Source of the DNA: Bacillota bacterium
Lineage (GTDB): Bacteria; Bacillota; Limnochordia; DTU087; JAAYGB01
Reading direction: 5' to 3'
DNA: 64,000 bases
Assembly: GCA_012727955.1 (NCBI GenBank)
Contig: JAAYGB010000023.1
Coordinates: 1-64,000 of the forward strand
Below the pieces are notes generated by a model. It had not been told where the DNA came from. It worked only from the letters and a program-made list of their open reading frames with translations, and did not search any database. This document shows, in pieces, positions 51,782 to 62,335 of the stretch. The stretch's first letter is position 1, and the number at the start of each line of letters is the position of its first letter. The translations under genes were made by a program, and so were the position numbers.

Positions 51782-51806
51782 CTCACAGAGCGATGCGTTC
51801 AGTCCG

Positions 51807-51835
51807 AAAGGGAGGAGCTAGGCTCCTCCCTTTTC
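51807..51835 (+). terminator. Intrinsic terminator
   Basis: AAAGGGAGGAGC (51807-51818) pairs perfectly with GCTCCTCCCTTT (51822-51833) around three bases. Confidence 0.88.
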
Positions 51836-51909
51836 AGTAGGGGCATGGGATTGAAGTATTACATAATCAGAGGATGGTTTTGGGTGATACCGTTAAGGAG
51901 GTAGTCACG

Positions 51910-52401
51910 TTGCAAGAGGTGACGTCCAACAACTCAAATCATCTATGTAGGCGATGGATTACGGCTGAGGGCCTATGACGGCAGCTTTCATCAGGCGGTG
52001 CCCTGGTATCGGGACGGAGAAGTTTTCCATGGTTTCGAAGGAATAACGGACAAATCCCAGATTCCCGATGGGGACTATGTCTGGGCATGTATGAGTACCT
52101 GTCTGATCATGGCCAGCTGTACTTCATTGAGGTCCTGGAAAACGGGAACTTTGTCCCGAACGGTGATGTTGCGCCAAAGGCCGAGACCCATCTATTCTTA
52201 TTGGTGTAGGTTGGTATCGGGGCCGCGACATTGGAAAGAAGGTGATCAGGACCATCATTGATCGTGCCCGCCAGTTAGGGGGTGTACGGTTCTAGGATCT
52301 ATGACTACAATATTGCGTCTCAGAGGCTGCATGAGTCCCTGGGCTCTATGTGCATTGGTAAACAGAGTAAGGAATTGATCCATGAGTTAGATCTTGAATG
52401 A
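51910..52401 (+). pseudogene. GNAT acetyltransferase pseudogene with several frameshifts
   Basis: Three reading frames in turn give a recognisable acetyltransferase: YVGDGLRLRAYDGSFHQAVP and WYRDGEVFHGFEGITDKS (from 51938), then MYEYLSDHGQLYFIEVLENG (from 52087), then LIGVGWYRGRDIGKKVIRT (from 52197), then RIYDYNIASQRLHESLGS to a stop at 52399-52401. Each boundary needs a single-base insertion or deletion, and a further one is needed near the TTG start at 51910 (behind AAGGAGG). The decay is recent, since the sequence is still clear. Confidence 0.9.
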
Positions 52402-52553: not shown

Positions 52554-52581
52554 TTGACTAAGTCTGGGGATGTGGTATGAT
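52554..52581 (+). promoter_or_regulatory. Sigma-A-type promoter of the riboswitch operon
   Basis: TTGACT (52554-52559) and TATGAT (52576-52581) are separated by 16 bases, about 50 bases upstream of the riboswitch aptamer. Confidence 0.75.
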
Positions 52582-52629
52582 TGAGATGTCAGCTTTTCTT
52601 GCCAAGATATAATCAAAACATACATATGT

Positions 52630-52750
52630 ACGTTATCTCCGAATTCCGTTAGGAAATGGGGGACCCTATCAAAGTGGGGTGAATCCTGGCTTGCGGTTTG
52701 CCAGGTAGGGCAACTTGGGAGCCCGAACCCGTCAGCTAACCCCGTAGGAG
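52630..52750 (+). promoter_or_regulatory. Cyclic-di-AMP riboswitch (ydaO-yuaA class)
   Basis: The aptamer has the hallmark ydaO/yuaA conserved segments in order: CCGAATTCCGTTAGG, GGGGGACCC, GGGGTGAATC, GGTAGGGCAAC, GAGCCCGAACCCGTCAGC and TAACCCCGTAGG. I recognise these from the known class (RF00379). These RNAs bind c-di-AMP and usually turn off downstream expression when it is high. A terminator follows at 52757, and the SulP gene lies behind it. Confidence 0.93.
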
Positions 52751-52756
52751 TGATCC

Positions 52757-52806
52757 AAGCGTAGTGTATTAGTCCCGTAGAGGGTCTTTGCATGCGCTTT
52801 TTTTTG
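52757..52806 (+). terminator. Intrinsic terminator acting as riboswitch expression platform
   Basis: AAGCG (52757-52761) pairs with CGCTT (52795-52799) as the base of a long imperfect hairpin with a CCC/GGG inner stem, followed by a run of eight or more T's. It is positioned to switch transcription of SulP and the Mrp genes. Confidence 0.8.
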
Positions 52807-52878
52807 TGTCTGCGCATCCTTCGGCGTTGATATAGATGGTTCACTACGAGGTATTACTAGGTATACGGGGGGATCTGT

Positions 52879-54438
52879 GTGCGTTCTTGGTGGGGACGTT
52901 ATCGCGGTGATGTGGCGGGTGGGCTTACCGCGGCGATTGTAGCTTTGCCCTTGGCATTGGCCTTTGGAATTGCTAGCGGCGCGGGAGCTATAGCTGGCTT
53001 GTATGCATCCATTTTTGGTGGCTTGGTGGCTTCGGTCTTTGGCGGCTGCGGGGTTCAGATCTCTGGGCCTACTGGAGCGATGACCGCAATCCTGGTCAGT
53101 CTGGTTGCCAAACATGGGTTGGGCGGTATGCTTTTGGCTGGTATCTTGGCAGGGCTGATGCAAATTGGTCTTGGCCTTTTGCGTTTAGGTAAGTTTGTGA
53201 AATATCTTCCTCAGCCGGTGATTGCCGGTTTCACCAATGGTATATCAATCTTGTTTTTCATGACAGCCATCGGTGATGCCGTTCAAGAACCTATCATCAC
53301 TTTGTTTACCGCGCTAGTGATCGTTCTTGCTGCACAACTCTTCAAGAGAGTCCCCGATTCTCTCTTTGGATTAGTCGCCGGTCTTGCCCTCAATCAATTT
53401 ATTGGTTCGTCACACGTAGTAGGCGAAGTTGCCTTTACAATACCGAAATTTACCTTTGGATTAATGCCGCTAGAGCACATTGGTTCTTTGATCATGCCTG
53501 CAGTTAGTATCTGCTTGCTGGGTAGCATATCGGCGTTATTGTCGGCACAGGTCACCGACAGCATGACCGAAAGCCAGCACGATAGTAACCGTGAGCTGGT
53601 AGGGCAGGGCCTGGGGAACCTTGTCTCCTGTGCAATTGGTGGTGTTCCCATTACTGGGGCCGTGGCTCGCTCCGGCATCAACGTTTACGCCGGGGGTCGT
53701 ACCCGAGTTTCCGGTATTCTTCATTCCTTGTTTCTCGGGTTTATGGTCTTGGTCTTACAGCCCGTGGTAAGACGGATTCCGATGGCATCCTTGGCAGCGA
53801 TTTTGATGGTATCGTCGGTGCGTACCGCTGATTGGAAGAGCTTAAGATTGATACCGCGAGCGCGGTGGTCCTACGGTGCCATTCTCATCTTCACCACCAT
53901 ACTCACCGTGGTTCAGGATTTAGCAATAGCAGTAGTCGCGGGAGTAATCTTGGCCGTGATTGGGGTAGTAGTGGAGTTGGCTGCTTTGCCCCAGGGAAGG
54001 GAAGTATCCCATAAAGAAGAGCGGGAGCCTGCCTTATCTTACCAGGTACATAACGCCGTTCAGGTGTTGGCTTTTCATGGGCCGTTGTTCTTTGTAGGAG
54101 TGGAACAGGCAAGAAACCAGATCAAGCAGCTGGCCAACAAACCTATCTTGGTTCTAGATTTATCCGATGTTTCGATCCTCGATGAGACCGCTGCCTTGGC
54201 GCTACTGGACTTGGCAAGACGTCTGCAAGGACAGGGCAAGGCGCTCTATGTAGCGGGATTGAGTAAGAAGGCATTGCGCATGGTAACCCGGATGGGGTTG
54301 GTTAAGGAACTGGGACGGCAGCGGCTATGCAGAGATATTAATTGTGCCTTGCGACGGGCAGTTCGTGAGGCTATACAGCTGGAATCGGAAGAGTATACAT
54401 CTCCCAGTTGGCCCCCTGTGGCAGAGTTGAGTAGCTAG
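52879..54438 (+). CDS. SulP-family anion transporter with STAS domain
   Basis: The 519-residue protein has a membrane domain of about 12-14 segments with the SulP signatures GGLTAAIVALPLALAFGIAS, IFGG, ISGPTGAMTAI and VIAGFTNGISI. A cytoplasmic STAS domain (ILVLDLSDVSILDETAALAL) ends it. SulP members carry sulfate, chloride or bicarbonate; cyanobacterial BicA is a Na+-dependent bicarbonate importer. Downstream Na+/H+ antiporter genes make Na+-coupled import likely here, but the anion is not readable. GTG start behind GGGGGG. Controlled by the upstream riboswitch. Confidence 0.93.
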   Translation: MRSWWGRYRGDVAGGLTAAIVALPLALAFGIASGAGAIAGLYASIFGGLVASVFGGCGVQISGPTGAMTAILVSLVAKHGLGGMLLAGILAGLMQIGLGLLRLGKFVKYLPQPVIAGFTNGISILFFMTAIGDAVQEPIITLFTALVIVLAAQLFKRVPDSLFGLVAGLALNQFIGSSHVVGEVAFTIPKFTFGLMPLEHIGSLIMPAVSICLLGSISALLSAQVTDSMTESQHDSNRELVGQGLGNLVSCAIGGVPITGAVARSGINVYAGGRTRVSGILHSLFLGFMVLVLQPVVRRIPMASLAAILMVSSVRTADWKSLRLIPRARWSYGAILIFTTILTVVQDLAIAVVAGVILAVIGVVVELAALPQGREVSHKEEREPALSYQVHNAVQVLAFHGPLFFVGVEQARNQIKQLANKPILVLDLSDVSILDETAALALLDLARRLQGQGKALYVAGLSKKALRMVTRMGLVKELGRQRLCRDINCALRRAVREAIQLESEEYTSPSWPPVAELSS

Positions 54439-54503
54439 CCTCTTAAGGCCTGGCTCGGGGGGGGAGGTAGCAAGATTAGTAGTAAGGTAGGAGGGCGGTT
54501 ATT

Positions 54504-55079
54504 TTGCGCAGGCGGGAAGTAATTATAGCTGGCTTGCTGTTATCCTTCTGGCTGGTATTAGCCGAAAGCTTTGATCTACAGCATATTTTAGCGGGTTTGG
54601 TACTAGCCGTGGGGACGGTGTGGCTGTGGCGGGATTTGTTTCCATATCTACCACGGGTTGCGGTGAAGGAAATGGTTCTTCTTGGGAGACTGGTGGTGCG
54701 GCTAATTGGTTTCGTGATTGCATCGAATATTGCCGTAGCCAAGACTGTTCTCTTTAATGGTCCTTCAGTGACGCCGACGATTATCATTATGCGGCCTCCC
54801 TTGGAAACTAATTGGGCCAGGGTACTTTTGGCCAATTGCATTACCATTACCCCGGGAACTGTAACGATTGATGTTCATCCGGAGACGGGGGAATTCATGG
54901 TGCACGCTTTGACCACGGAGACGGCAGCAGATCTCCTGGATTGGCAGCTAATTCGAGAGATTGAAGAGATTGAGTTGTGGAGAAAGGAGAGGAAGGCACG
55001 TGGTTTGGTTGTTGGTAGGGCTGATGACACTAATCCTCTTGGCTCTGTTGCGAGCCATTCTGGGTCCGACGGCCATTGA
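54504..55079 (+). CDS. mnhE: Mrp antiporter subunit MnhE/MrpE
   Basis: The 191-residue protein has two or three hydrophobic segments and the MrpE pattern FNGPSVTPTIIIMRPP, followed by NCITITPGTVTIDVHPETGE. It is an accessory subunit needed for assembly of Mrp-type Na+(K+)/H+ antiporters. Its 3' end overlaps the start of MnhF by about 80 bases. TTG 54504 has GGAGG upstream. First of the ten Mrp genes behind the SulP gene. Confidence 0.92.
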   Translation: MRRREVIIAGLLLSFWLVLAESFDLQHILAGLVLAVGTVWLWRDLFPYLPRVAVKEMVLLGRLVVRLIGFVIASNIAVAKTVLFNGPSVTPTIIIMRPPLETNWARVLLANCITITPGTVTIDVHPETGEFMVHALTTETAADLLDWQLIREIEEIELWRKERKARGLVVGRADDTNPLGSVASHSGSDGH

Positions 55080-55311
55080 TCGTCTACTGGCCATTAATGC
55101 CATTAGCAGTATGATCGTGGCGATTATTCTATTACTCGCTTTCTTCCACGATAATTACAGCTTCGTCGACGTGGCCATAGTCTTTGTCTTGTGCGGATTT
55201 ATTGGAAACCTGTGGATACTTCGGGTGTTGGCTCCCGACAGCTGGAACCAGCGATTGTCACAGGTAAAGGGGATTCTAGAAAAGGAAGAGGAAGTGGTCT
55301 CTAGTGATTAG
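55000..55311 (+). CDS. mnhF: Mrp antiporter subunit MnhF/MrpF
   Basis: A small three-helix membrane subunit with LRAILGPTAIDRLLAINAIS and ALVFVLCGFIGN-like AIVFVLCGFIGN, both typical of MrpF. GTG 55000 has AGGAGAGG upstream and gives the expected ~104 residues; a TTG at 54961 would add an unrelated tail. It overlaps MnhE, and the next gene overlaps it by eight bases. Confidence 0.9.
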   Translation: MVWLLVGLMTLILLALLRAILGPTAIDRLLAINAISSMIVAIILLLAFFHDNYSFVDVAIVFVLCGFIGNLWILRVLAPDSWNQRLSQVKGILEKEEEVVSSD

Positions 55312-55615
55312 GTGGCTAGCAGGGATATGTTTCGTCGGGTCTTTTCTAGCCTTTACTATCAGCACCCTGGGATTATTTCGCCTTCCTGATCCCTATAGCC
55401 GGCTGCACGGAGTTTCGGTAGGTGACACTCTTGGGATAGGTCTGGTTGGTTTGGGCCTAGTTCTTCTAAGTCCTACTGCTGCTCTTCGGATTAAGCTTCT
55501 GGTGGTGCTGATCCTGTTCTGGCTCATCAATCCAGTCATGAGCCATATGGTTGCTAAGGGCGGTCTTGTAAGGGGAGTGCGACCCACTCAGGGTACAAAG
55601 GTGATGCGGGAGTGA
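55304..55615 (+). CDS. mnhG: Mrp antiporter subunit MnhG/MrpG
   Basis: The 103-residue subunit has three membrane segments and the MrpG motif RLPDPYSRLHGVSVGDTLGI. It is required for ion exchange but does not carry it. GTG 55304 overlaps the MnhF stop; its own stop overlaps the next gene by four bases, showing tight coupling. Confidence 0.92.
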   Translation: MIRWLAGICFVGSFLAFTISTLGLFRLPDPYSRLHGVSVGDTLGIGLVGLGLVLLSPTAALRIKLLVVLILFWLINPVMSHMVAKGGLVRGVRPTQGTKVMRE

Positions 55616-55872
55616 CAGAAGTGGCGATGACTGGTACAGATTATGGCATTATGGCTATGCTCAGTTTGCTTATTATTGCGTCCTTAGCGATGTATTGGAT
55701 CAAGGACTTGATTCACGCTGTTGTTGTTTACGGAGCCTATAGTTTGGTTATGGCCTTGGTGTGGCTGGCGATGAATACTCCAGATTTAGCTATAACCGAA
55801 GCAGCAGCGGGGATAGGGACGACGGTGTTGATGATGGTTGTTATCTACCGAACCAACCGGAGGGAGGAATGA
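55612..55872 (+). CDS. DUF4040 (MbhD-like) membrane subunit, part of split MrpA
   Basis: The 86-residue protein has three hydrophobic segments with DLIHAVVVYGAYSLVMALVW and TPDLAITEAAAGIGTTVLMM. In full-length MrpA this region is fused to the C-terminus of the antiporter part; here it is a stand-alone protein. It overlaps MnhG and the next gene. Confidence 0.88.
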   Translation: MTEVAMTGTDYGIMAMLSLLIIASLAMYWIKDLIHAVVVYGAYSLVMALVWLAMNTPDLAITEAAAGIGTTVLMMVVIYRTNRREE

Positions 55873-56171
55873 AGATGAAATTTCGCAGATTATTATTTTT
55901 TCTCCTCGCTCTGTTGGTCGGTTACGTGATGGTGGTTACTATTGCAGAGTTGCCGCCCTATGGAATTCCCCAGGGCCCTTCGGATAATATCGTTAGTCAA
56001 CGGTATATTCACAATGCCTTGGAAGATACTGGTGCCACCAACATGATCACTGCCATCGTCGTAGACTACCGAGCCTATGATACGTTGTTTGAGACGACGG
56101 TTCTCTTTACAGCTGTTATGGCAGTACTTGTCACCCTCAAGACCGGTGTAGGAAAGAAGGGAGACCAATGA
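55869..56171 (+). CDS. MbhE-like membrane subunit, part of split MrpA
   Basis: The 100-residue protein has two membrane segments with VVTIAELPPYGIPQGPSDNI, YDTLFETTVLFTAVMAVLVT. It matches MbhE, the second small piece corresponding to the MrpA C-terminus. ATG 55869 follows GGAGGGAGGA and overlaps the MbhD-like stop by four bases. A longer reading upstream in this frame is not protein-like. Confidence 0.85.
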   Translation: MKMKFRRLLFFLLALLVGYVMVVTIAELPPYGIPQGPSDNIVSQRYIHNALEDTGATNMITAIVVDYRAYDTLFETTVLFTAVMAVLVTLKTGVGKKGDQ

Positions 56172-56593
56172 GAGATCTAATTCTAAAGCGGATTCTTACC
56201 ATACTTCTTCCCTTTATCCAAATGTATGGATTGTATGTGATCTTTCATGGACATCTTTCTCCCGGCGGTGGATTCGCTGGTGGAATGATTGTAGGGTTAG
56301 GATTTATTGGCTTTGCTACTGTGTTTGGCTTGGAGCGAGGAAGTGACAAGTTGCCCCACTGGGTGACCACCATGGCGGAGAGCTTTGGCACTCTGTGGTA
56401 CGGGGCTATCGGTTTGGTGGGTATTCTGCGGGGAACTTCATTCTTGATGAACAAGCAGGCCGGTGTGCCGGTAGGTCAAGCCGGAGACTTGTTCTCTGGT
56501 GGGTTAGTCTTTCTTATTACATTGGGCATCGGGGTAAAGGTAGCGAGCACGATGGTTACTCTGTTCTTCGCCCTAACGGAGGAGGAGAACTGA
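56168..56593 (+). CDS. mnhB: Mrp antiporter subunit MnhB/MrpB
   Basis: The 141-residue four-helix subunit carries the MrpB motif GHLSPGGGFAGGMIVGLGFI and AGDLFSGGLVFLITLGIGVK. It overlaps the MbhE-like gene by four bases and shares one base with the next. Confidence 0.93.
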   Translation: MRDLILKRILTILLPFIQMYGLYVIFHGHLSPGGGFAGGMIVGLGFIGFATVFGLERGSDKLPHWVTTMAESFGTLWYGAIGLVGILRGTSFLMNKQAGVPVGQAGDLFSGGLVFLITLGIGVKVASTMVTLFFALTEEEN

Positions 56594-56976
56594 TGAGCAG
56601 TCTTTGGGGCAGGGTGTTGATCAACTACCCATACTTCATGGCGGCGATCTTGTTCGTCATTGGAGTCGTGACGGTACTGACTCGGTCTAACCTGTTTAAG
56701 AAGCTACTGGGAATCAACATCATGGAAAGTGCCATTTATCTTACCTTTGTTGCCGCCAGTAATCGCCGGGATGGAGTAGTGCCTATTCTGGATCTAGCTA
56801 ATCCAGAGCAGCCTTACATTAACCCTTTGCCATCGGCCCTGATGTTGACCGGAATCGTGGTTAGTGTTAGCGTTACTGCCTTTGCCTTGGCTCTGATTGT
56901 CAGGTTGTATCGTTCTTATCACACAACCGATGCCCGGCAGATTTCGCGGATGAAAGATGAGGTGACGAATGGATGA
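56593..56976 (+). CDS. mnhC: Mrp antiporter subunit MnhC/MrpC (NuoK-like)
   Basis: The 127-residue three-helix protein is NuoK-like, with LFKKLLGINIMESAIYLTFV (conserved glutamate in membrane) and LPSALMLTGIVVSVSVTAFA. ATG 56593 overlaps the MnhB stop. An earlier start in the same frame lies inside MnhB and is not used. Confidence 0.92.
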   Translation: MSSLWGRVLINYPYFMAAILFVIGVVTVLTRSNLFKKLLGINIMESAIYLTFVAASNRRDGVVPILDLANPEQPYINPLPSALMLTGIVVSVSVTAFALALIVRLYRSYHTTDARQISRMKDEVTNG

Positions 56977-58466
56977 CGGCAACATTGAAGCAACATTTAC
57001 CAGTACTATTAGTCGTTGGCCCTTTGCTCGTCGCCTATATCCTTCCAGTATTATTCCGAAGAACCCGGTTGATTAGGGGTCTGACTGTCGCCATCGTAGC
57101 TCTGGGCCTATTGGGAACCGGGTACTTGGCAATTTTTCTCCTTCCCTCTGTCGGTTCGTCCATTGTCTACGGGGTGGGAGGTTGGTCAGCGCCCTGGGGA
57201 ATAGAACTTGTGGCGGGAAACCTCGGCGTATTCTTTGCATTGATGGTTACGGGAGTGGGGTTGCCGATATCCCTATATGCCTGCGGCGCTCTGGGTCAAG
57301 AGGTGAGCCCTTCAGAAACGAGGAGTAAGTTTCTCGTCCTCTATCTGTTGTTAACGGGTGCTTTGGCTGGAATGGCCTTTACCAATGACATGTTCAATAT
57401 CTTTGTTCTAGTGGAAGTAGCTACTTTGAGCTGTTGTGGTCTGGTTAGTGCTCGCAGGGGAGCTAAAGCGGCATCGGCTGCCTTCAACTATCTGGTCTTG
57501 GCTACGATTGGCTCAAGCTTCATTCTAGCCGGGATCGGAATGGTTTACATTACGACTGGACACCTCAACATAGGCTTTGCCAACGGAGAATTAGTCAAGG
57601 CTTGGTCAACGTATCCCCATGTGATTTGGCTGGCGGTTAGTTTCTTCTTAGTGGGTTTTGGTGTCAAGGGAGCGTTATTTCCTCTACATGTTTGGCTGCC
57701 TGACGCGCATTCCAGTGCGCCAACTCCTGCCAGTGCCATCCTCTCGGCTTTGGCCGTTAAGGGATATGCCCTATGTCTGATGAAAATCTTGTACGGTGTC
57801 TTCGGTGCTTCCTTGATTACCACCCTAGGGGTGAACCGGATTTTGGTTATCTTGGGGATGGTCGGAACTATGGCGGCATCGATTCTGGCCTTGGGCCAGG
57901 AAGAGCTCAAGCGTCGGTTGGCCTTTTCAACGGTGGCTCAAGTGGGTTATGTCTTCTTGGGTTTGGGACTGGTGAATGTCACCGGTCTGACCGGTACTCT
58001 CTATCACATGGCTAGTCACGCCATGATCAAGTCCAGTCTGTTCTTGGCGGCCGGAACGATAGTTACTACCACAGGGAAGACCCGAATTAGTGAGCTGGCG
58101 GGCATCGGCAAGAAGATGCCGGTCACAATGGCGGTTTTCACCATCGCTAGTCTTGGCCTCGTTGGCATACCCCTGTTTTCAGGTTTCGTAGGCAAATGGT
58201 ATCTACTGCTGGGAAGTCTGGAAGTCGGGGGGGTCCTGGCAGCGGCGGTGATTATTCTTGGCAGCGTTCTCTGTGCCGCGTATCTCTTTCCCATTATTCG
58301 GGTGGCTTATTTTGAGCCTGCCCCTCAGGAAGATTGGCAGGATCCCGGTGTACTAGAGAAGATCGCTATGATTGGACTAGCCGTTGGAGTACTAGTCCTT
58401 GGCACTGTTCCAGGATCATATTTGGAGATGGCTGTACAAGCTGCTTCGGAACTACTGTTCAAATAA
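56973..58466 (+). CDS. mnhD: Antiporter-like subunit 1 (MnhD/MrpD, NuoN/M-like)
   Basis: The 497-residue protein has about 14 membrane segments. The proton-path residues are all present: Glu148 in FVLVEVATLS, Lys232 in FGVKGALFPLHVWLPDAH, Lys263 in LAVKGYA and Lys in HAMIKSSLFLAAG. It should conduct H+ or Na+ as part of the Mrp complex. ATG overlaps the MnhC stop by four bases. It is one of three such subunits in the operon. Confidence 0.93.
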   Translation: MTATLKQHLPVLLVVGPLLVAYILPVLFRRTRLIRGLTVAIVALGLLGTGYLAIFLLPSVGSSIVYGVGGWSAPWGIELVAGNLGVFFALMVTGVGLPISLYACGALGQEVSPSETRSKFLVLYLLLTGALAGMAFTNDMFNIFVLVEVATLSCCGLVSARRGAKAASAAFNYLVLATIGSSFILAGIGMVYITTGHLNIGFANGELVKAWSTYPHVIWLAVSFFLVGFGVKGALFPLHVWLPDAHSSAPTPASAILSALAVKGYALCLMKILYGVFGASLITTLGVNRILVILGMVGTMAASILALGQEELKRRLAFSTVAQVGYVFLGLGLVNVTGLTGTLYHMASHAMIKSSLFLAAGTIVTTTGKTRISELAGIGKKMPVTMAVFTIASLGLVGIPLFSGFVGKWYLLLGSLEVGGVLAAAVIILGSVLCAAYLFPIIRVAYFEPAPQEDWQDPGVLEKIAMIGLAVGVLVLGTVPGSYLEMAVQAASELLFK

Positions 58467-58489
58467 ACCGGAAAGTGGAGGTGGGGTAG

Positions 58490-59935
58490 GTGAGCAACTT
58501 AACTTTGGCTCTGCTCAGTGGGGTCCTGGGAGCGGTGGTTTTGTCCTTCACGGACCGAGTCAGGAGCGGGATACGCAATACACTGACATTGGCCTTTGCA
58601 CTTTCCGGCGCTTGGTTTACTTGGCAGGTGGCCCTAGCTGTAATGGCCGGGGAGTCGGTGGGTCTGACAATGAGGTTGGGTGGGCTGACCTGGAGTCTTC
58701 GGGCTGATCCACTGGGCGTAGTCTTTGGTCTTATAGTCTCATCCCTGTGGGTACTGGCTACCGTCTATTCCTTCGGATATATGAATGGCGAACCCAGGCA
58801 ACGCACTTATTATACATTCTTCCTGTTATCCTTTGCTGTGACTTTGGGGGTGGCCTTTTCTGGCAACTTGTTGACTCTGTATTTGTGTTATGAGTTGTTA
58901 ACCTTTGCCACCTATCCCTTGGTGATTCATCAGCGGGATGAGGAAGCGGTTAAGGCAGGATCCAAGTACATTATCTATAGTCTATCCGGTGCTGGAGCGA
59001 TTTTGGTAGCGATGGTGGTTACCTATCTCTTGGCAGGTAGCCTAGAATTTACCGGTAGACCTCTATTGGCAGCGGTGGGATCCCGGCGGGGCCTGGGCTG
59101 GCTCTTGGCTCTGTTTGTCGCAGGATTTGGAGTTAAGGCTGCGCTGATGCCCTTGCATCGGTGGTTGCCCGCAGCCATGGTGGCTCCCACTCCAGTAAGC
59201 GCTTTGCTCCACGCCGTGGCTGTAGTTAACTCTGGGGTTTTTGGTCTACTGCGGGTAATCTATTCCATCTTTGGCCCTGAGCTGGTGTCACAGCTGGCCC
59301 TGGGACGATGGTTGCCCTGGATCGCGGCCTTTACAATCCTGGCCGGTTCTGTGATTGCCCTGCGGCAGGACGTTCTAAAGAGAAGACTGGCGTATTCCAC
59401 CATCAGTCAACTGTCCTATATTCTCATGGGGGCCTTTATCCTACATCCCTGGGCTCTGGCTGGGGCTCTGATCCACATGGTGAGCCATTCTCTTTTGAAG
59501 ATGGCACTGTTTTTTGGGGCAGGGATTGTCGCCAAGGGGACGGGCAGGGTGAATGTTAGCCAGATGCCGGGTGTCGGTTGGCAGTTTCCCTTGACCTTTG
59601 GTGCCTTTGGTGTGGCTTGTCTTGGTATGATCGGTATGCTGCCCCTTAACGCCTTCTGGGGCAAGTATTATCTGATGAAGGGCGGCATCGCCAGCGGAAG
59701 TTGGCCCCTAGCTTTGGTGTTGATTGTCAGTGGTCTATTGAACGCCTGCTACTTTGTCCCCATTGTGGTCTCAGCCTTTAGCGGCGAGGCTTCTGGTAGA
59801 AAGTTGGAAAGGGGCGGGCAGGTTGTTTGGATGTTGGCTCCGACCCTTGGTTTGGTGGTAGGGGCATTGGTCATGGGTGTAGCGCCAGGAATTGTCTGGC
59901 CGGCTATTACAGCTATCGTTGATGCTTTCTTCTAA
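58490..59935 (+). CDS. Antiporter-like subunit 2, lacking the TM8 lysine
   Basis: The 481-residue protein has the same fold, with Glu135 in LCYELLTFA, Lys216 in FGVKAALMPLHRWLP and Lys in HSLLKMALFFGAG. At the usual second-lysine site it has VAVVNSG (Val246-Asn247) where subunits 1 and 3 have a lysine, so its channel residues differ. GTG 58490 behind GGAGGTGGGG. It may act as the MrpA-like or an auxiliary subunit. Confidence 0.9.
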   Translation: MSNLTLALLSGVLGAVVLSFTDRVRSGIRNTLTLAFALSGAWFTWQVALAVMAGESVGLTMRLGGLTWSLRADPLGVVFGLIVSSLWVLATVYSFGYMNGEPRQRTYYTFFLLSFAVTLGVAFSGNLLTLYLCYELLTFATYPLVIHQRDEEAVKAGSKYIIYSLSGAGAILVAMVVTYLLAGSLEFTGRPLLAAVGSRRGLGWLLALFVAGFGVKAALMPLHRWLPAAMVAPTPVSALLHAVAVVNSGVFGLLRVIYSIFGPELVSQLALGRWLPWIAAFTILAGSVIALRQDVLKRRLAYSTISQLSYILMGAFILHPWALAGALIHMVSHSLLKMALFFGAGIVAKGTGRVNVSQMPGVGWQFPLTFGAFGVACLGMIGMLPLNAFWGKYYLMKGGIASGSWPLALVLIVSGLLNACYFVPIVVSAFSGEASGRKLERGGQVVWMLAPTLGLVVGALVMGVAPGIVWPAITAIVDAFF

Positions 59936-59954
59936 AATAAAGGGGTGAAACAGC

Positions 59955-61880
59955 ATGACTTGGATGGCTCTTCCCCTCATACCGGCCTTGGCAGCTGTCC
60001 TCTTGGCTCTGAGGCCAAGGGCGGGCAGGTATCTGCCCTTTGCAGCCAGTTCCTTGGTATTGCTTTTAAGTGGGTGGAAGTTAGGCGGCATTTTGGGTGG
60101 TGAAGTGTTCACATATCAATGGAATTTGGTGGGTCCCTTCAGCCCCAGCCTACGGGTTGACCCACTATCGGGGATTTTTCTCCTGGTGACGGCCTTTGTG
60201 TGGTGGGTGGCTTCCCTGTATGCACCGGAGTACATGAACCACGAGGGCAGGGAAGGGAGATTTACTCTCTGGCTGTTGCTGACTCAGACAGCGGTCCTCG
60301 GGGTATTTTTGGCTGGGGACCTTTTGACCCTGCTGCTTTGTTTTGAGTTAATGACCATTACTTCATGGTTTTGGGTAATTCATCGGGGTAATCAAGAGGC
60401 CCTGAGAGCCGGGTATTTCTACCTGTTCTTTAGTATAGCTGCCGGGTTATTTGTCGCCATTGGTGCTGTGCTCATTGGGCAAGCCGGTGGAACCCTGACC
60501 ATCGGATTGGGTACCCTAGCTCAGTTACTTCCCAATACCCATGTGGTTTGGGGTCTGGTGGCTGTTGCCCTAGGGTTTGCAGTTAAAGCCGGGATGGTAC
60601 CCCTGCATCTGTGGCTTCCTCATGCTCACTCGGTGGCTCCGACACCGGCCAGTGCTCTCCTTTCCGGTATCTTGATCAAGGCCGGGGCCTATGGTTTGCT
60701 TCGGGTGGGTCAGGTGGTGGGCTGGGATTCTGCGCTGCTTAGCGGCACCAAGGGATTGGGTCTTTGCCTTACAGTCTTGGGCGCGGCCACTATGCTGGTG
60801 GGCGTCGGTGCTGCCTTGCTGCAAAGTGATGCCAAGCGCCTATTGGCCTATCACAGCGTCAGCCAGATGGGATATATCCTCCTGGGATTAGGCGCAGCCT
60901 GGTTCCTCGGTCAATCCGGGGGGATGGCTCTGACGGGAGCGATTTATCATGTGATTAACCACGCCCTCTTTAAGGCCGCTTTGTTTCTCGGGGTTGGCGT
61001 TGTCTATGTGCGCACCAAGGAAACCAACCTATACAATCTCGGGGGTCTGTGGCGTTCCTTCCCGATTACCGCGGTGCTGATGTTTCTGGCGGTTTTGGGG
61101 ATTACTGGGGCACCGGGACTTAATGGATACGCCAGTAAGACTTTGTTACATCATGGGATAAGTCAGGCTGCCGGTACCGGTTTGCCGTTAATGATTTGGA
61201 TAGAAAGATGCTTCCTTCTGGTGGGAGTAGGTACTGCTGCTTCCTTTGCAAAGCTCTACTGCCTGATGTTTCTCAGAAAAGGGAAATCCACGGGTATTGT
61301 CCGGGGTGAGACTTGGCAGTTTAGCACCGCGATGGCTTCGCTGGCTGCGGTCATGCTTGTGATTGGATTACGGCCAGAGCTTGTTTTGAGAAGGTTTGCA
61401 ATTCCGGCGGCTAGGGTGCTGGGGATAGAGCAGGTCGAAGGATTGATCATGGGCTTTTCCTTCTGGTCTGGGGCCGATGTCATGGGGATGGTAATTACTC
61501 TAGGCCTAGGGATAGTCGTAGCTTGGCTTGGCCTAACCACTGGAGCCTTCCACTGGCAGCCTCCCAAGGTGCTCACTTTGGAGGGCTTGATGGGAAGTAT
61601 CCTCCGTGGGTTACTCATCCTGGGGCGAAAAGCCGAGGGTGTATACCACAGTGTGGTAGGCGCACTGTCTGGGCAGTTGAGGATGGGAGCCCGTAACCTG
61701 TGGGTTGCCTGTCAAAGGCTAGACCGATCCGGCGGAGTGACCATTGCCGGTGGGTTCCTCTCTGAACTGAGTGCCAATGTGGGTTTGATCGTGGTGGTTC
61801 TGATCACCCTACTTGTTGGTTATATCTGTGTCGAACTGATTACCCGTGGTCTGAGTGTACCACTGGTTATGATGAAGTAG
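59955..61880 (+). CDS. Antiporter-like subunit 3 with C-terminal extension (MrpA/NuoL-like)
   Basis: The 641-residue protein has Glu131 in CFELMTITSW, Lys211 in FAVKAGMVPLHLWLPHAH, Lys242 in ILIKAGAYG and Lys in HALFKAALFLGVG. After the antiporter domain about 150 residues continue to two further membrane segments, ending in VVVLITLLVGYICVELI. The extension resembles the NuoL/MrpA lateral-helix region in position only. It may be the MrpA-like N-terminal partner of the split complex. Start ATG 59955 with AGGGGTG. Last gene of the operon. Confidence 0.9.
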   Translation: MTWMALPLIPALAAVLLALRPRAGRYLPFAASSLVLLLSGWKLGGILGGEVFTYQWNLVGPFSPSLRVDPLSGIFLLVTAFVWWVASLYAPEYMNHEGREGRFTLWLLLTQTAVLGVFLAGDLLTLLLCFELMTITSWFWVIHRGNQEALRAGYFYLFFSIAAGLFVAIGAVLIGQAGGTLTIGLGTLAQLLPNTHVVWGLVAVALGFAVKAGMVPLHLWLPHAHSVAPTPASALLSGILIKAGAYGLLRVGQVVGWDSALLSGTKGLGLCLTVLGAATMLVGVGAALLQSDAKRLLAYHSVSQMGYILLGLGAAWFLGQSGGMALTGAIYHVINHALFKAALFLGVGVVYVRTKETNLYNLGGLWRSFPITAVLMFLAVLGITGAPGLNGYASKTLLHHGISQAAGTGLPLMIWIERCFLLVGVGTAASFAKLYCLMFLRKGKSTGIVRGETWQFSTAMASLAAVMLVIGLRPELVLRRFAIPAARVLGIEQVEGLIMGFSFWSGADVMGMVITLGLGIVVAWLGLTTGAFHWQPPKVLTLEGLMGSILRGLLILGRKAEGVYHSVVGALSGQLRMGARNLWVACQRLDRSGGVTIAGGFLSELSANVGLIVVVLITLLVGYICVELITRGLSVPLVMMK

Positions 61881-62335
61881 GGAAAGAAGAGTTCAAATAG
61901 TAAGTCGTGTTTGCTTTCTGGCAAATGTAACTTGGCTCCTTAGGGTATCGCTCCCGGTGAATCAGCCTATCTATCCTCCTAGAAGCTGAATGATGTCGTA
62001 CCAGTCCATCAAGCAGAGTCACATTAACCCGGGGGCGACGCCTTCACATATTTCCGTCAAGCAGAGGTAGATTTTGCTCTAGTGGATTACGTAGATCGAT
62101 GGATCTAGCGAAATGTCTATTTAAACTAGCGATTAAATCTTGCTTGCTCCTCTTCCTTCAGCAGCAAGTGCCTAGGAAATCAGCCAGTCTGCCGCCTTGG
62201 GGCGGTGGGAGCTGGCTGATTTTCCATAAACAGGAAATTGTTAACCCTCGGTGAAGTCAAGAAGGGGAAGGGTTCACCTTCGCAATCAAGACCATGCTTA
62301 AGTATTAGCCTCAACAGGGATAGGAGGAATTATGG
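61881..62335. other. 455-bp gap after the Mrp operon
   Basis: No gene is seen. It holds a perfect TAGATC/GATCTA inverted repeat (62092-62107), two near-copies of a 14-base word (62005-62018 and 62053-62066, one mismatch), and the terminator listed next. It also carries the MFS promoter region. Confidence 0.5.
62175..62226 (+). terminator. Intrinsic terminator
   Basis: GGAAATCAGCCAG (62175-62187) pairs with CTGGCTGATTTTCC (62212-62225), enclosing a GCCGCC/GGCGG inner stem. It lies about 300 bases beyond the Mrp operon. Confidence 0.7.

Follow-up and report, generated by a model that had tools for sequence, protein, structure and literature searches.

Analysis of the 64,000-nucleotide (nt) window (positions 1 to 64,000 of contig JAAYGB010000023.1 of a Bacillota bacterium, assembly GCA_012727955.1) suggested that a cyclic di-adenosine monophosphate (c-di-AMP) riboswitch of the ydaO class very likely controls a single transcript encoding one SulP family anion transporter and a complete ten-gene Mrp-type antiporter, switching it off at high c-di-AMP. 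According to the proposed mechanism, at low c-di-AMP, as under low potassium or low turgor, RNA polymerase would read through a terminator in the leader, and both SulP and Mrp would be made. At high c-di-AMP, the folded aptamer would favor the terminator, and SulP and Mrp would fall together. Binding of c-di-AMP and the OFF polarity are predicted here from the riboswitch family, in which the kdpFABC riboswitch of Bacillus thuringiensis is a proven OFF switch with a terminator, c-di-AMP falling on K+ limitation (PMC6488665), and the Dehalobacter tandem riboswitch is a proven OFF switch whose binding of c-di-AMP ends transcription (PMC9337991). Co-transcription of the Mrp genes with SulP is likewise predicted, from synteny and gene overlaps.

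Leader and layout of the SulP–Mrp operon

The aptamer was identified by a covariance-model search with RF00379, in which the full-length match scored well above the curated gathering cut-off of 38 bits (Table 1) and was the only match in the whole 2.27 Mb, 97%-complete assembly. The aptamer core is almost invariant across 30 aligned leaders. At another locus the genome has a 387-codon frame with a diadenylate cyclase domain, and therefore the organism can probably make c-di-AMP. For the promoter, the consensus scan performed at chance level (10 sites found, 9.9 expected), so that a consensus match alone means nothing; the site upstream of the aptamer is believable because most of the 21 relatives displayed keep the TTGACT...TGTGNTATNAT block at the same position 5′ of the aptamer.

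Within the aptamer, the pseudoknot between loop and tail (CUUGG/CCAAG) was paired in 98% of cells in the 30 leaders, a level reached by none of 500 shuffles, and two of its pairs showed changes on both sides, to CUUUU/AAAAG. The tail strand borders on, and extends slightly into, the foot of the intrinsic terminator that serves as the putative expression platform, and this terminator is kept in most of the 30 leaders, with paired changes (covariation). An earlier note on this DNA, made from the letters alone, had described a promoter, a ydaO-class aptamer and a terminator, and had read them as a terminator-type OFF riboswitch heading a SulP–Mrp operon. The aptamer and the terminator were confirmed by the covariance scan and by folding together with conservation in relatives; the promoter is upheld by its conservation, and the switch as a whole by aptamer, terminator, gene order and conserved linkage, its polarity being taken by analogy.

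Downstream of the leader, the ten Mrp-type genes mostly overlap or sit a few bases apart, and the SulP gene preceding them starts with a GTG codon at 52879 behind GGGGGGA. No strong terminator on the plus strand was found inside the operon, the strong ones standing only at its borders (51805–51835 and 62180–62223), and no promoter inside the operon was better than chance. The domains and the terminator scan thus agree with the earlier description of SulP plus ten Mrp-type genes without an internal terminator. The earlier note had also held that a separate promoter between 54438 and 54504 would speak against a shared transcript; no promoter-like site was found in 54439–54503 by the consensus scan, which a promoter for another sigma factor could escape.

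This possible escape is one of several points that weigh against the proposed control. The OFF polarity is presumed from other ydaO members. The best antiterminator candidate, in which the 5′ flank of the aptamer (UACGUU) would pair with the terminator foot (AAGCGUA), proved no better than shuffles or slid controls and is not claimed here: it fits in the window, and L041, L089 and a few others show paired changes for it. It was 61% paired against 59% in shuffles, and some slid controls were equally high on covariation. Moreover, the leader terminators are damaged in three relatives (L088, L096, L037) despite an intact aptamer, and control may be weak or lost in them. Failure to establish an antiterminator, together with the damaged terminators, would also suit an aptamer that is a relic or of reversed polarity, with no switch-off at high c-di-AMP. 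We consider this very unlikely, given a core nearly invariant in 30 leaders, a pseudoknot and a terminator kept by paired changes, and an intact terminator with its eight T in the window. Folding of the nascent leaders gave no dominant alternative pairing. Separately, a conserved CCACUAC...GGGGUGA element was observed 5′ of the SulP start (in L038, L041, L062 and others), which is partly complementary to the aptamer tail; in a pairing test, own pairs were not clearly better than cross pairs (p = 0.07).

Table 1. Features of the riboswitch-led operon and its borders (window coordinates).
Feature	Position	Strand	Evidence or description
Intrinsic terminator of upstream sulfatase gene	51805..51835	+	13-pair hairpin, −22 kcal/mol, then TTTT; isolates the 5′ side of the operon
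Promoter TTGACT, 16 nt spacer, TATGAT, extended TG	52554..52581	+	consensus scan and same block in relatives
c-di-AMP (ydaO) riboswitch aptamer, RF00379	52627..52766	+	89.7 bits, E 1.2e-19, model positions 1-134 (full length)
Pseudoknot loop strand CUUGG	52714..52718	+	pairs with 52755-52759
Pseudoknot tail strand CCAAG	52755..52759	+	pairs with 52714-52718; overlaps terminator foot
Intrinsic terminator (AAGCGUAG...UGCGCUUUUUUUU), putative expression platform	52757..52805	+	−21 kcal/mol, z −3.1, 0/200 shuffles; ends in eight T
Shine-Dalgarno-like GGGGGGA of SulP	52867..52873	+	sequence
SulP family anion transporter with STAS domain, 519 amino acids (aa)	52879..54438	+	PF00916 (Sulfate_transp) 1.7e-55, PF01740 (STAS)
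MrpE/MnhE	54504..55079	+	PF01899 1.2e-28
MrpF	55021..55311	+	PF04066 1.4e-11
MrpG	55304..55615	+	PF03334 1.1e-19
MbhD-like (MrpA C-terminal part as separate gene)	55612..55872	+	PF13244 1e-16
MbhE-like	55860..56171	+	PF20501 1.1e-10
MnhB/MrpB	56168..56593	+	PF04039 1.5e-24
MrpC (NuoK-like)	56590..56976	+	PF00420 4.7e-25
MrpD-like antiporter subunit 1	56973..58466	+	PF00361 1.5e-54
MrpD-like antiporter subunit 2	58490..59935	+	PF00361 3.8e-55
MrpD/MrpA-like antiporter subunit 3, 641 aa	59955..61880	+	hydrogenase-4 subunit B / MrpD profiles
Intrinsic terminator closing operon	62180..62223	+	−28.9 kcal/mol hairpin, then TTTT

A degenerate frame (51890–52400, plus strand), probably a frameshifted remnant of a GNAT-like acetyltransferase and named from translated fragments only, lies in the interval separating the sulfatase gene from the promoter.

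Conservation and probable evolutionary order of the aptamer–SulP–Mrp linkage

A pattern scan with the SulP sequence over 84,980 species genomes returned 10 orthologues of 63–68% identity, and all 10 carried an RF00379 aptamer just upstream; to the extent that their contigs cover it, the order of the genes was also the same. In a survey of the class (73 genomes), SulP matches at E ≤ 1e-60 numbered 15 in 14 genomes, and comparison with the positions of the RF00379 matches placed an aptamer directly upstream of every one (15/15, including L098, L092 and L095). Among 399 genomes sampled evenly across the phylum, SulPs of 62–68% identity occurred in three further families (f35, f64, f76), again with aptamer and Mrp. 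The survey of SulP–Mrp neighborhoods that the earlier note had called for thus revealed a linkage conserved across many genomes, not a local accident.

SulPs at least 60% identical to that of the window nearly all lead into the same Mrp operon, those of 41–53% identity (f8, f11, f12, f40) keep the aptamer with no Mrp seen, and those below about 40% have no aptamer. Genome G134 has a split SulP with the aptamer present and no Mrp nearby, and G452 is an apparent exception in which a contig end cuts the region, with the final portion of the aptamer still in view. The aptamer and Mrp are both retained in G001, where aptamer and MrpE are separated by no more than a short SulP remnant, and in G011, where the SulP at that place has suffered an internal loss; in G057 SulP is absent and the aptamer immediately precedes MrpE, as it does at a contig end in G072. 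A clear exception was observed in G091 (L082/L115, G091:C22), whose SulP paralogue of the Mrp-linked clade has neither aptamer nor Mrp.

Viewed from the Mrp side, MrpE lay behind an aptamer in at least 15 of the 41 MrpE-bearing genomes of the class and in at least 5 of the 77 sampled MrpE-bearing genomes outside it, the latter all of the SulP–Mrp kind; both counts are lower bounds owing to contig breaks. No aptamer was present in 11 further SulP-less Mrp operons of this type on the stretch examined, which for L100 (probably the remainder of the G057 operon) and L107 covers the operon only partly. Because SulP-less operons of this type are otherwise without an aptamer, the aptamer link is not generic to Mrp. 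In G018, a member of the same class, an RF00379 aptamer (L111, G018:C1, 8758–8892, minus strand) heads a canonical operon encoding a 944-aa MrpAB-like protein followed by C, D, E, F and G, which looks like an independent acquisition.

A maximum-likelihood tree built from 46 SulPs grouped the aptamer-linked ones together, and within them all Mrp-linked members fell into one 100/100 clade, together with one paralogue lacking both aptamer and Mrp. The SulP L067 (G134) was labelled Mrp-linked in this tree, but L119 shows no Mrp on the contig stretch; the clade is unchanged. The simplest reading is that the switch first belonged to SulP and that the Mrp operon joined later, because the divergent SulPs of 41–53% identity carry the aptamer but not Mrp. 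Later the switch came to belong to Mrp and stayed with it even where SulP decayed or was lacking.

This history bears on the alternative that the riboswitch governs SulP only and the Mrp genes are mere neighbors with their own promoter. Six relatives from two divergent SulP groups, which have the aptamer before SulP and no Mrp detected on the contig stretch, agree with such an arrangement, as does the gap between SulP and MrpE (65 nt in the window, up to about 115 nt in relatives). Yet this gap carries neither a terminator nor a promoter-like site, the aptamer is kept before MrpE in the four genomes with a decayed (G001, G011) or absent (G057, G072) SulP, and the canonical Mrp operon of G018 has an aptamer at its own head. 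We therefore regard control of SulP alone as improbable and retain the joint control of SulP and Mrp.

Several further ydaO aptamers were seen in these surveys. Other ydaO targets in relatives, judged from translations read by eye, included a Trk-type K+ transporter, an ABC transporter and lysine 2,3-aminomutase. In L003, L005, L014 and L015 a ydaO aptamer precedes a gene for an oligopeptide-binding protein, back to back with a cobalamin riboswitch on the opposite strand. Tandem RF00379 aptamers on the same strand occur at G160:C9:22417-22712, G261:C49:83916-84257 and G174:C1:1575434-1575934.

The SulP transporter and the Mrp subunits

The maximum-likelihood tree gave full support to a place for the window SulP on the BicA side of its family, away from SLC26Dg. 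BicA is a Na+/HCO3− symporter with the Na+ ligands Asp258, Thr262, Gly300 and Thr302 and the bicarbonate contacts Thr69 and Ala301 (PMC13249358). The window SulP resembles BicA in the LP(L/M)ALAFG motif of transmembrane segment (TM) 1, PTG in TM3, GA in TM10 and the STAS domain, and it keeps Thr69, Gly300 and Ala301. It differs in an ARSG motif in TM10 and at the Na+ site, where positions 258, 262 and 302 are Ser, Ser and Val. Ser occupies position 258 in every member of the Mrp-linked clade, and Glu is found there in the aptamer-linked SulPs without Mrp outside that clade. An assignment of the window SulP to BicA itself was rejected, the score being 272 bits against a curated equivalog cut-off of 880 and Asp258, Thr262 and Thr302 not being kept. 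The earlier note had proposed a probable Na+-coupled anion importer. Because the BicA Na+ ligands are replaced, with Ser at 258 throughout the clade, Na+ coupling is unlikely; the SulP would carry some anion, probably without coupling to Na+.

The same residues help to weigh a different purpose for the operon, namely bicarbonate uptake, with Mrp keeping Na+ low to power a BicA-type SulP and c-di-AMP reporting the carbon rather than the osmotic state. Such a role is compatible with the riboswitch and competes over the purpose of the operon. It draws on the fully supported position of the SulP on the BicA side with both bicarbonate contacts kept, and on cyanobacteria, where BicA is supported by Na+ exporters including Mrp and the carbon regulator SbtB reads c-di-AMP (PMC13249358). 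Against it stand the replacement of Asp258 and Thr302, the long BicA branch and low identity, which make the substrate not transferable, and the other ydaO targets of the relatives, which fit osmotic control. Overall, a bicarbonate-uptake operon appears rather unlikely.

The Mrp subunit set is complete from A to G, including MrpE, MrpF and MrpG, with A split into MbhD, MbhE and D-type subunits. The Glu and Lys residues of the proton path are kept in all three D-type subunits, except the TM8 Lys of the second (58490–59935), which is replaced by Asn here and by Asn or Tyr throughout its subfamily. By analogy with the family, the complex would extrude Na+ (or K+) against H+. In its E, F, G, B, C and D-type subunits and its proton-path Glu and Lys, it is like the Mrp (Mnh/Pha) group with separate MbhD and MbhE and several D subunits; the window operon differs from that group in having no full-length MrpA, ten genes, three D-type subunits and a SulP in front.

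Tentatively, and with considerable doubt, we propose that c-di-AMP, known for restraining the uptake of K+ and osmolytes, might through this riboswitch also control a dedicated Na+/H+ plus anion module and so set K+ import and Na+ expulsion with counter-anion traffic as one signal. SulP, whose acidic coupling residue would have changed from Glu to Ser at the BicA Asp258 position in the clade that gained Mrp, may then offer anions an uncoupled route alongside the Mrp pump.

Comparison with known c-di-AMP systems

According to reviews (PMC7266159, PMC3766115), the ydaO targets reported so far belong chiefly to K+ transport, to the transport of osmolytes and amino acids, and to cell-wall and osmotic genes. 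No earlier report of Mrp or SulP under a ydaO switch was found in the literature searched, which did not extend to the original target compilations (Block 2010, Nelson 2013); with those compilations aside, this agrees with the statement of the earlier note that SulP–Mrp is absent from the known targets. With the same proviso, we rate the riboswitch class as known, and the target operon as new, conserved and physiologically telling. Because the arrangement is conserved across many relatives, c-di-AMP probably controls not only potassium but also sodium and pH balance. With Mrp and an anion transporter tied to it by a conserved link, the c-di-AMP regulon would come to include Na+ and pH balance and the anion accompanying cation movement. 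Moreover, the natural series of leaders (before SulP alone, SulP–Mrp, decayed SulP–Mrp, Mrp alone and canonical Mrp) offers ready comparisons for finding the real target gene.

The nearest known counterparts are the two OFF switches introduced above. Like the ydaO switch of kdpFABC in B. thuringiensis (PMC6488665), the window element combines an aptamer and a leader terminator with an ion-transporter operon downstream and presumed OFF control; it stands before genes for an anion transporter and an Mrp cation/proton antiporter, whereas kdp encodes a K+ importer. With the tandem Na+/c-di-AMP riboswitch of Dehalobacter (PMC9337991), it shares a c-di-AMP switch tied to sodium and osmotic physiology. 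In Dehalobacter a Na+ aptamer precedes the c-di-AMP aptamer and the controlled gene serves to make an osmolyte precursor, whereas the leader in the window has no Na+ aptamer and its target is a set of ion transporters.

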